Source: a bacterium
GTDB lineage: Bacteria; SZUA-79; Acidulodesulfobacterales; Acidulodesulfobacteraceae
Direction: 5' to 3'
Length of the DNA stretch: 34,154 bases
Assembly: GCA_021795355.1 (NCBI GenBank)
Contig: JAJYPL010000014.1
Location: 1-34,154, forward strand
Shown: positions 18,837 through 21,714 of the stretch, in pieces
Numbering within the stretch: the stretch's first letter is position 1
How the letters are laid out: each line of letters opens with the position of its first letter
Program-made: the position numbers and the translations under genes
Notes under the pieces: model-generated
Databases searched by the model: none
Told to the model about the DNA's origin: nothing
What the model saw: the letters and a program-made list of their open reading frames with translations, nothing else

Positions 18837-19244
18837 ATGGCTAAATTTTTCCCGTTTGAATATTTTGAACCGGTTTTCGATCATTCGGTCTGCAACATGA
18901 AAAGGATACGGAGAGAGCTCAGGCTTGCGGAAGATTTAACGGCTATAGATTATGTGTCTATCGTGATTTTAAATATAAAAAAATACAACGGCGATTTTGT
19001 AAAAACATTAAGCGGCGTATTGAGAGACTCCGACGTAGTATCCGTTAAAAACGATTTTGTTTACCTTTTTCTACCCGGAACCGATTTTGAAGGTTCGATG
19101 AATATAATCGGGGATTTTAAAGAATTCTACGAAGATGCTTTTGATTATATTATTTCCTCGACCCTTTTAAAAGATTTAAAAAACGTTGCGGATGTTTTAT
19201 CCGAAATAAACAGACTTGCATTAGATAAAGGCTGGATATTATAA
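18837..19244 (+). CDS. Small protein resembling a minimal, degenerate GGDEF-like fold
   Basis: This 135-residue soluble protein is not recognised with certainty. Its middle part (VSIVILNIKKY... LSGVLRDSDVVSVKNDFVYLFLPGTDFEGSMNIIGDF) follows the order of a diguanylate-cyclase core: a hydrophobic strand ending in a polar turn, an R-x-SD-VV segment, then a strand reading FVYLFLPGTD. The GGDEF loop itself is replaced by KNDFV and the N-terminal half of the domain is missing, so no cyclase activity is expected. A GCGGAGGC Shine-Dalgarno at 18,824-18,831 fixes the ATG; the frame is open further upstream without a ribosome site. It follows the PBP gene by 86 nt. Confidence 0.55.
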   Translation: MAKFFPFEYFEPVFDHSVCNMKRIRRELRLAEDLTAIDYVSIVILNIKKYNGDFVKTLSGVLRDSDVVSVKNDFVYLFLPGTDFEGSMNIIGDFKEFYEDAFDYIISSTLLKDLKNVADVLSEINRLALDKGWIL

Positions 19245-19249
19245 AATAT

Positions 19250-19326
19250 TGTAACGCAATCGTAACAAAAATTTAACGCAATCGTAACATATTTGTCATA
19301 ATCCTGAAACAATTTCTTTTTATAAT
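19250..19326 (+). promoter_or_regulatory. Six-fold 11-bp-phased Pho-box-like array with -10 box, upstream of comM
   Basis: Seven-base half-sites begin at 19,250, 19,261, 19,272, 19,283, 19,294 and 19,305, an exact 11-nt period. They read TGTAACG, CGTAACA, TTTAACG, CGTAACA, TGTCATA and TGAAACA, separated by AT-rich 4-mers. PhoB-family activators bind such 7+4 tandem repeats on one helical face. A TATAAT -10 lies at 19,321-19,326, 9 nt after the last half-site, with no independent -35, the usual geometry of a PhoB-activated promoter. Assignment to PhoB rather than another OmpR-family regulator is inference. Confidence 0.7.
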
Positions 19327-19380
19327 AAATAAGAAGAGTTTTTAATAATTATTTATTCAATAAAAAGAGGTTTTTGGATT

Positions 19381-21009
19381 ATGATAATAGCCTTAAACAG
19401 CGCGACTTTCATCGGGATAGAAGCCGTTCCCGTGAACGTAGAGGTTTTTATATCGGGCGGCATACCGGGCATTATGATAGTAGGGTTGCCTGATGTTTCC
19501 ACTAAAGAGGCAAAGGACAGAGTAAGAGCCGCGATAAAAAATTCCGGCTTTGAATATCCGGTAAAAAAAATAACTATAAACCTTGCTCCCGCCGATATAA
19601 GAAAAGAAGGTCCGATATTCGATCTGCCTCTTGCCGTCGGTATTTTAATTTCCGCAGGACTCCTGAAATGCGCATTAAATCTTAACGACTATATAATAGC
19701 CGGAGAACTGTCTTTAAACGGAAAAATAAAAAAGATTAACGGTATAATCGCCCTTGGAATACTCGCTAAAAAAATAAATAAAAAGTTAATTATTCCTTAT
19801 GAAAATATAAGTGCGGCAAAATTTCTCGGAGTCGATTTTGCGGCGTTCGGCAGTTTAAAAGAATTATGTATGTTTATTTCGGGAGAAACGGCTTATTTTG
19901 AAAGAGAAGAAAAAGAATCGCAGGTTTATTTCAATAATAAGATAAATATAAATTACGAAAATAATGATGAAAATATTTACTTTAAAAATATTATCCAAAA
20001 CGCAAACGCAGTTAAAAAAGAGCGGAGGCAGTATGTCGATTTTTCGGAAATCAAGGGGCAGGAACTTGCTAAAAGAGCCGTTTTAACCGCAGTAGCCGGG
20101 CATCACAACATATTAATGGTCGGATCTCCAGGGAGCGGAAAAACTATGCTTGCGCACAGCATAGAGGGAATACAGCCGGATTTATCGCTTGAGGAATCGT
20201 TGGAGACGTCAAATATATACAGTTTTTCAAATAAAAATAAAAAAAACGGCGGCGAGGAAATCGGGCTTATATTAAGAAGACCTTTTATTGCGGTGCATCA
20301 CACGGTATCCCTTGCGGGATTAATAGGCGGAGGCGGCGGTTTAAACCCTCTGCCGGGCGATATAAGTCTTGCGCATAACGGAGTTCTTTTTATAGACGAA
20401 TTTTCCGAACTTAACAGAAAAACCATAGACGGTTTAAGACAGCCTATGGAAGATAAATATATTAATTTATCGAGGAGCCGTTTTTCTATAATTATGCCCA
20501 GCAATTTTATGCTTGTCGCCGCAATGAATCCCTGTCCTTGCGGTTATTACGGCGACGCAAAGCATGAGTGTAAATGTTCAAGCGCCGAAATTTATAAATT
20601 TTATACCAAAATATCGGGTCCTATTCTCGACAGATTCGACATATTTATAGAGGTTTATCCTGCGGATTTAGACGAATTAACGGTTAAAGCCGATATTCCC
20701 GATTCCGCCGATATTAAAAAATTAGTCGAAAAAACCAGAAATATTCAACTGAGCAGATATAAAAATACCGGTATCAGGTTTAATTCGTCGGTAAAAAGCG
20801 CAGATATAGAAAAGTATTTTAACGCAACGAATGAAGCTCTTAATCTTGCTCAAAACGCCGTAAAAAGATTAAATATTTCGTCGAGAGGCTACTATAGAAT
20901 ATTGCGCGTTTCGAGGACTATAGCCGACCTCGACATGAAAGAAGAAATAGATGCGGATTCCGTATTGGAAGCCTTAAATTACAGAAATACAAAACTTATA
21001 AAAGCGTAA
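19381..21009 (+). CDS. comM: YifB/ComM-family AAA+ ATPase (Mg-chelatase-like)
   Basis: This 542-residue protein is the YifB/ComM family; ComM is a hexameric helicase that promotes branch migration during natural transformation. The N-terminal ChlI-like fold (about residues 1-170, with GLPDVSTKEAKDRVRAA) is followed by the AAA+ module. Walker A is GSPGSGKT near residue 247, Walker B is LFIDEF, and the sensor region is AAMNPCPCGYYGD. The four-cysteine stretch CPCGYYGDAKHECKC is typical. It is slightly longer than the ~505-residue norm because of a loop near residues 175-220. An AAGAGG ribosome site precedes the ATG. It follows the phased Pho-box-like promoter. Confidence 0.92.
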   Translation: MIIALNSATFIGIEAVPVNVEVFISGGIPGIMIVGLPDVSTKEAKDRVRAAIKNSGFEYPVKKITINLAPADIRKEGPIFDLPLAVGILISAGLLKCALNLNDYIIAGELSLNGKIKKINGIIALGILAKKINKKLIIPYENISAAKFLGVDFAAFGSLKELCMFISGETAYFEREEKESQVYFNNKININYENNDENIYFKNIIQNANAVKKERRQYVDFSEIKGQELAKRAVLTAVAGHHNILMVGSPGSGKTMLAHSIEGIQPDLSLEESLETSNIYSFSNKNKKNGGEEIGLILRRPFIAVHHTVSLAGLIGGGGGLNPLPGDISLAHNGVLFIDEFSELNRKTIDGLRQPMEDKYINLSRSRFSIIMPSNFMLVAAMNPCPCGYYGDAKHECKCSSAEIYKFYTKISGPILDRFDIFIEVYPADLDELTVKADIPDSADIKKLVEKTRNIQLSRYKNTGIRFNSSVKSADIEKYFNATNEALNLAQNAVKRLNISSRGYYRILRVSRTIADLDMKEEIDADSVLEALNYRNTKLIKA

Positions 21010-21231: not shown

Positions 21232-21714
21232 TTAATCGAAAATAAATATAGTTTTAGGGTCGGATTCGTATCTGATTTCGTCCACAGGTTCTTTTTTATT
21301 TTTTCCGGCGAATAATTTATTAGCCGCATTAATAACAAGGCCGTTTTTGCCGCCTACGTTTTTATATGCGTGAACTACGCCCGGAGGCACTATAAGCGCT
21401 GAAGGCTTATTTTCTCCGAGAAACAGTATCATTTTATTCATATATGTAGGGGAATCTTTTCTGTTGTCCCACAATATAATTTTAAAATCCGAAGGGCCTA
21501 TAAAGCAAAAATAGTCGGTTTGATATACGTGTTCGTGAGGTCCTCTTTGCACTCCCGGCATTGTTAAAGATATGTAAGACATCTGCGGAAAAACGGATTC
21601 GTCTAATTCGTCGCTCCTGTAAAGTTCCGCAAGCCATCCCCTTTCGTCTATATATTTTTCGATTCTTTTAACCGCTACGTCCTTAATTACCGCTAGTTTT
21701 AATGTAACGTCCAT
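21232..21714 (-). CDS. RmlC-like cupin (dTDP-4-dehydrorhamnose 3,5-epimerase family)
   Basis: This 160-residue protein matches the dTDP-sugar 3,5-epimerase (RmlC) cupin family, acting on nucleotide sugars for surface polysaccharide. The sugar-site histidines are in RGPHEH (H60, H62), and PPGVVHAYKNV is the second conserved block. Its opening, DERGWLAELYRSDEL, fits family members. No rhamnose-pathway neighbours (RmlA, B, D) are present, so its exact substrate is uncertain. It is a stand-alone leftward gene without a Shine-Dalgarno, divergent from the barrel protein gene. Confidence 0.75.
   Translation of the reverse strand: MDVTLKLAVIKDVAVKRIEKYIDERGWLAELYRSDELDESVFPQMSYISLTMPGVQRGPHEHVYQTDYFCFIGPSDFKIILWDNRKDSPTYMNKMILFLGENKPSALIVPPGVVHAYKNVGGKNGLVINAANKLFAGKNKKEPVDEIRYESDPKTIFIFD

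Follow-up and report, generated by a model that had tools for sequence, protein, structure and literature searches.

The locus described here raises the question of what an apparent binding site for the phosphate-starvation regulator PhoB is doing in front of comM, the gene of a recombination helicase. It lies in the window, by which we mean the whole stretch of 34,154 nucleotides that was analyzed, from a genome of the Acidulodesulfobacteraceae (hereafter, the host family). An earlier note on the same DNA, made from the letters alone, had described a row of six PhoB-type half-sites and suggested that phosphate starvation may switch on transformation through comM. Is the array a Pho box of this lineage and, if so, does it speak of competence?

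Layout of the comM promoter

E. coli-type Pho boxes, the sites of PhoB, are made of CTGTCAT repeats in a 7+4 arrangement. Direct reading of the sequence in front of comM bears out the earlier description in every respect: six 7-nt half-sites succeed each other in steps of exactly 11 nt, 36 of their 42 letters fit the consensus YGTAACA, and TATAAT is found 9 nt further on (Table 1). No independent -35 element accompanies it, since the best TTGACA-like hexamer 15-19 nt 5' of TATAAT mismatches at 4 of 6 positions. Two features by which a Pho box is recognized are found here, namely direct 7-nt repeats 4 nt apart, present in six units where at least two are expected, and an array located just 5' of the -10 element, replacing the -35. 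The TCATAAT sequence, formed by half-site 5 with the next two bases, is kept in all 17 aligned promoters of genera g1 and g5.

The downstream gene had also been named correctly as YifB/ComM: its product scores 522.1 bits against TIGR00368 (cut-off 362.4), as a full-length YifB-family AAA+ ATPase, and matches the ComM structure 8rxd with an E-value of 4.3e-100, no other solved structure reaching E 1e-10. The next ORF of at least 80 aa (21232-21714) lies on the opposite strand, and comM is apparently monocistronic. Near the contig end (28346-34036), repressor-, integrase- and haemagglutinin-like ORFs, recognized by eye from the ORF list, suggest an integrated element.

Table 1. Features of the comM promoter region, in window coordinates
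Feature	Position	Strand	Remarks
Pho-box array	19250..19311	+	six direct 7-nt half-sites, 11-nt phase; room for three PhoB dimers; 44.5 bits (phosphate-gene-only matrix)
Half-site 1 TGTAACG	19250..19256	+	6/7 vs YGTAACA; decayed in several relatives
Half-site 2 CGTAACA	19261..19267	+	7/7 vs YGTAACA
Half-site 3 TTTAACG	19272..19278	+	5/7 vs YGTAACA
Half-site 4 CGTAACA	19283..19289	+	7/7 vs YGTAACA
Half-site 5 TGTCATA	19294..19300	+	5/7 vs YGTAACA
Half-site 6 TGAAACA	19305..19311	+	6/7 vs YGTAACA; closest to promoter
-10 element TATAAT	19321..19326	+	9 nt 3' of half-site 6; without -35
RBS-like AAGAGG	19365..19370	+	putative, read from sequence
comM (YifB/ComM family AAA+ ATPase)	19381..21009	+	ATG start; TIGR00368; PDB 8rxd

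The array was scored with an 11-column matrix, built from 54 units located in front of phosphate genes in five genomes, comM being excluded. Its 44.5 bits compare with a mean of -11.1 (sd 5.8, maximum 18.0) in 3000 dinucleotide shuffles of positions 19241-19380, and with 3.5 bits for the runner-up among the regions upstream of 31 ORFs in the window. These 31 regions provide an unbiased background; a larger set of 301 upstream regions is biased, because most of those loci were picked as motif carriers. A scan of the host genome for three consecutive half-sites, with at most 3 mismatches, gave 25 matches, three of which correspond to the comM array, and none for the reversed control pattern; in four relatives, the motif and the reversed control gave 31 and 1, 15 and 0, 21 and 2, and 16 and 0 matches, respectively. 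A pattern combining the array tail with the -10 element was noisy at 3 mismatches (192 matches vs 117 for the control in five genomes, among the matches listed), and the loci used are those with 0-1 mismatch, 23 among the matches listed, including one without an array (L318) and two scoring only 15-16 bits (L298, L313). The DNA is AT-rich and the six half-sites are imperfect, as would be expected of a fortuitous run of AT-rich repeats, but shuffles, reversed-pattern controls and conservation (see below) all contradict this explanation, whose probability we regard as negligible; it is in fact already refuted, because the array is conserved.

Phosphate genes and the PhoB-like regulator

The 25 matches in the host genome correspond to 12 places. 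These are located in front of comM, a chad-ppx-ppk operon, a symporter-like gene (two places), ssb, a secretin-T2SSE-T2SSF operon, a type IV secretion (T4SS) operon and four small or unclassified ORFs (C4, C14:12970, C21 and C33), the last place being on C37. The C37:7611 match is probably due to chance, and was rejected as a regulon site; the farther of the two symporter arrays, about 350 nt upstream of the gene, is less certain. The product of the symporter-like gene is an MFS transporter; phosphate:H+ symporter is the NCBIfam model it fits best, at 319.6 bits, below the cut-off of 610.3.

The earlier note had proposed to look for the motif at the Pst and Pho genes of the genome, and phosphate genes do share it. 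In the host genome, which is 66% complete, they are the symporter-like gene and chad-ppx-ppk, while pst was not found there; in each of the four relatives examined, pst genes lie behind arrays. Curated cut-offs were passed by PstS (L104), PstC (L104 and L108) and PhoU (L130), and the pst genes of L115 and L125 were recognized by eye. Further array-bearing genes in at least one of the four relatives, many of them named by eye, include the symporter, chad/ppx, a phospholipase/acid-phosphatase-like gene, exbB/exbD/tonB-like genes with TonB receptors, ssb, T4SS and pilus genes. No nuclease was recognized among the array-bearing genes examined in the relatives, an inspection that involved no dedicated nuclease search. 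A -10-like hexamer with at most one mismatch follows the array after 8-12 nt in 11 of 13 phosphate promoters, all except L116 and L117. Phosphate promoters contain 4-5 units, comM-class promoters of the same set 5-7, most of the latter with a final unit pair of the TCATAAT type.

Context thus supports the identification of the comM array as the Pho box of this lineage, and with it the PhoB-type assignment of the earlier note. The arrays resemble the E. coli-type Pho box in the 7-nt direct half-sites, the 11-nt phase and the lack of a -35 element, as well as in being common to pst, symporter-like and ppk genes; they differ from it in the half-site, (T/C)(G/T)TAA(C/T)A in the host lineage, in the AT-rich spacers and in the six units found at comM.

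A candidate for the protein reading the arrays is readily found. In each of five genomes, the PhoB model clearly singles out one regulator, which scores 246-251 bits vs 156 for the next best, the equivalog cut-off of 296.2 not being reached. PhoB is the best NCBIfam model for the regulators of the two genomes scanned, and the DNA-binding domain matches that of E. coli PhoB (chain 1gxp) with an E-value of 1.2e-23. In G000, the host genome, the regulator gene maps at C20:15847-16548, and in G019, a 97% complete relative, at C2:274002-274691; no kinase gene was seen adjoining it in either genome. G019 carries arrays at pst, ssb and comM, and its single protein with an OmpR/PhoB-type effector domain (Trans_reg_C) is the PhoB-like one, so that one regulator most simply serves both promoter classes. 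This same observation, together with the fact that one matrix fits both classes, argues against the reading of comM-type six-unit arrays by a second OmpR-type regulator, for example one with an ArsS-like kinase near chad-ppx-ppk. Such a regulator might be suspected from the 5-7 units of non-phosphate promoters, vs 4-5 at phosphate genes, and from an ArsS-like/OmpR pair whose contig also carries four array-bearing places; we consider it very improbable. The pair itself, an ArsS-like sensor kinase and an OmpR-type regulator, maps at G000:C14:3502-5290 (L027 3-1791, minus strand), near the array-bearing polyphosphate operon; no second OmpR-type regulator is found in G019.

Conservation of the array at comM and at other DNA-handling genes

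comM was found in 26 of the 30 host-family genomes; it was not found in G012, G020 and G024, and is represented by a fragment in G017. The upstream region is readable in all 26 genomes and for a second copy in G005, and all of these 27 promoters carry the array. Two of the 27, L144 and L134, were assigned to G011 and G005 by their contig coordinates. Conservation in orthologous promoters, on which the earlier interpretation had been made to depend, is thus observed, though weakly in genus g2, where the array is reduced to 3-4 units scoring 11.3-15.8 bits, within the shuffle range of the host-genome promoter (maximum 18.0). The spacing between array and -10 element is the same in genus g2 as elsewhere, in seven of seven closely related genomes. 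A hexamer with at most one mismatch to TATAAT lies 9 nt after the array in 25 of 25 comM promoters, and in a set of 13 loci drawn largely from the same genomes. Outside the host family, none of the four comM upstream regions fetched contains the array. Over 17 aligned g1/g5 promoters, array and -10 element have an information content of 1.3-2.0 bits per column vs 0.71-0.76 in the flanks; within the array, half-site columns are not clearly above the spacers (1.51 vs 1.38 bits), other phases giving larger contrasts.

Among other DNA-handling genes, ssb has an array as well: of 30 loci, 24 offer 220 nt of upstream sequence, the other 6 having too little of it, and 16 of the 24 score above 20 bits. 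The eight loci not above this value are paralogues or distant copies (L183, L184, L192, L193 and L194) and those of genus g2 (L189-L191). The geometry differs from that of comM, because the ssb array abuts a TTGCCA hexamer and has no TATAAT 9 nt further on. At ssb (L165-L168) and at some recA genes (L197, L208 and L221), arrays merge at their end into a -35-like hexamer, TTGCCA or TTGATA, unlike at comM, and PhoB may act in another way at these promoters. recA itself was rejected as a general member of the regulon: only 6 of 26 readable loci are above 20 bits (4 of 30 being unreadable), two more score 18.5 and 19.6, and the host genome scores -20.6.

The secretin-T2SSE-T2SSF operon, encoding an MSHA-like pilus, has the array in G000, G014 and G003. 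The T4SS operon lies at about 100.5-116 kb of G000:C20 (L029, L233), with counterparts in G019 (L328) and G016 (L329). Its VirB4/TraC-like protein matches in 27 of 30 genomes; orthologues with at least 64% identity are counted in 26, in all six genera, because the G009 match is only 50% identical, and all 19 high-quality genomes have a match. Gene order is nearly the same in the three genera examined, two genes not being seen in G016. The VirB4/TraC-like protein contains P-loop_TraG (PF19044, 107.2 bits, above cut-off), TraC being its best NCBIfam model (209.6 bits, below the cut-off of 567). The coupling protein is represented by PF02534 in G019 and by TraG-D_C in G000, both above cut-offs; the cluster has both the VirB4-type ATPase and the coupling protein expected of a conjugative T4SS. 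TrbI, TrbL and transglycosylase domains are also found. A MoxR-like ATPase is encoded inside the operon. Of the 30 T4SS loci, one lacks the N-terminus and five have too little sequence. Among the 21 readable orthologous loci, 14 have an array above 20 bits, 6 score 10-20 bits, a value not significant alone over 1500 nt, and one scores 1.1; most arrays are followed at 9 nt by a TATAAA-like -10 element. The upstream regions of three paralogous secretion systems score at most -1.6.

Sign of regulation, competence and DNA exchange

PhoB probably activates comM as part of a Pho regulon enlarged by DNA-handling genes. The sequences themselves show the motif, its geometry, its occurrence at phosphate genes, its conservation and the gene contents; binding of PhoB, activation at low phosphate and the role of ComM are what we infer from them. 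When phosphate is short, phosphorylated PhoB would bind the six direct repeats head to tail, in up to three dimers, would stand in for the missing -35 element and would recruit sigma-70 RNA polymerase to the TATAAT downstream, thus raising comM transcription. The gene would in this way join phosphate uptake and polyphosphate genes, ssb, the MSHA-like pilus operon, the fixed T4SS and several small proteins in one enlarged regulon. As the host family gave no match for ComEC, the most likely role of ComM is in homologous recombination and DNA maintenance, or in recombining DNA that the T4SS transports, and not in classical transformation.

Promoters devoid of a -35 element usually require an activator. 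The opposite sign, with PhoB repressing comM in low phosphate, is improbable. Geometry alone leaves the sign unproven, and Pho regulators are reported as activators or repressors in passages of a paper which also describes the Pho box as 7+4 repeats, bound head to tail by a PhoB that contacts sigma-70 (PMC4415409); but the array occupies the place of the absent -35 and, in 25 host-family promoters, stops 9 nt short of the -10 element.

The suggestion of the earlier note, that phosphate starvation may switch on transformation, did not hold up. comM would in that case act as a late competence gene, in natural transformation or in the uptake of DNA for its phosphorus, in line with the presence of the box at comM, ssb and the pilus/secretin operon, and of dprA in 29 of 30 host-family genomes. 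However, ComEC, described in a passage of PMC12455585 as required by all competent bacteria, was not found (PF03772) in any of the 30 genomes, 19 of them of high quality, whereas the same search was positive in 10 of 14 control genomes. Nor is there an array at any of the 29 dprA loci located by tblastn: within 300 nt of the gene (163 nt only for L240), none exceeds -6.5 bits, and the best score over all upstream sequence on hand, up to 1275 nt, is 2.3 bits. The array is sparse at recA, as reported above, and the secretin scores best with MSHA MshL (162.3 bits, below the cut-off of 250.2), the competence secretin models ranking lower. With ComEC not found, dprA without array and recA only sparsely provided with it, comM regulation should not be read as competence; natural transformation was rejected, being as a reading of this promoter highly unlikely.

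The box-bearing DNA genes might instead serve a T4SS-based exchange of DNA under phosphate starvation, be it uptake, release or cell-to-cell transfer, the transferred DNA being protected and recombined by SSB and ComM. The spread of the VirB4/TraC-like orthologue over all genera, the near-constant gene order, the coupling-protein, TrbL and TrbI domains and the array in front of the operon argue for this possibility. On the other side, a scan of every cluster gene, in G000 or in G019, for relaxase domains, another component expected of a conjugative system, gave none at E 0.01 or better, and the cargo is putative: the system could as well move proteins or kill neighbors. We regard such exchange as possible but doubtful. 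Slightly more doubtful still is the wider proposal that the host family has swapped ComEC-type transformation for a fixed chromosomal T4SS moving DNA, and has put T4SS, pili, SSB and ComM under the PhoB regulon, with phosphate limitation leading to DNA exchange or scavenging.

Pho regulons are known to extend past phosphate uptake. A precedent for PhoB acting on DNA-handling genes is provided by Desulfovibrio vulgaris, where, according to passages of PMC3333781, the targets of PhoB (DVU1083) include DNA polymerase and gyrase genes besides pst and phoU. The box reported there, (c/t)GT(n)AC, is similar, and DNA replication genes are among the targets; in contrast to the present case, the DNA genes named in these passages are those of DNA polymerase and gyrase; comM, ssb and a T4SS are not mentioned, and pili are assigned to a separate regulator, DVU2114 (PMC3333781). 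In Agrobacterium, virulence genes are expressed more strongly at low phosphate, and attachment is increased by PhoR/PhoB, as stated in passages of PMC4018554; low phosphate is thus tied to virulence genes there, as the array is found at the T4SS here, but the virulence response is credited to VirA/VirG, while in the host family the array lies directly 5' of the T4SS operon. Cold shock in Moraxella induces comM, dprA and comEA along with pst and phoBR, no box linking them being mentioned in the passages concerned (PMC3699543), and in those of PMC10322971 comM and PhoB occur in separate contexts. Finally, the gene product shares family TIGR00368 (8rxd match, E 4.3e-100) with the ComM branch-migration helicase of transformable Gram-negatives, as presented in passages of PMC11612176, but is encoded here behind a Pho box, in a family that gave no match for ComEC.

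The earlier note knew of no description of comM as a Pho-regulon gene, and none was found in the open-licence PMC literature, where no paper was recognized as placing transformation, DNA repair or ComM under Pho control. Pho boxes and ComM are both already known; comM as a family-wide Pho target, along with ssb and a fixed T4SS and with ComEC undetected, was not found in that literature. An environmental switch on comM alone does not amount to competence. A family-wide Pho box at a recombination helicase, accompanied by ssb and a fixed T4SS in genomes with no detectable ComEC, would rather link phosphate starvation to DNA handling, in a way that is directly testable.

Some other arrays are found in unexpected positions or in front of uncharacterized genes. 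A strong array found in two genera is oriented antisense to a methionine-synthase-like gene, recognized by eye, and points into its 3' end (L106 6480-6519, minus strand; L123 1011-1050, plus strand). Three recurring array-bearing proteins, putative members of the regulon, have no Pfam match in the copy scanned: one of about 465 aa (L096 1101-2498, the copy scanned, L314 and L321), one of about 100 aa (L030 4528-4821, scanned, L095 934-1263 and L107 1132-1419) and one of about 76 aa (L031 200-430, scanned, and L099 124-357). Coiled-coil-like proteins encoded behind the arrays of L026, L102, L103, L129 and L299 have in common a stretch resembling SPEKYFD(S/A)RFD(G/A)QEKLF.
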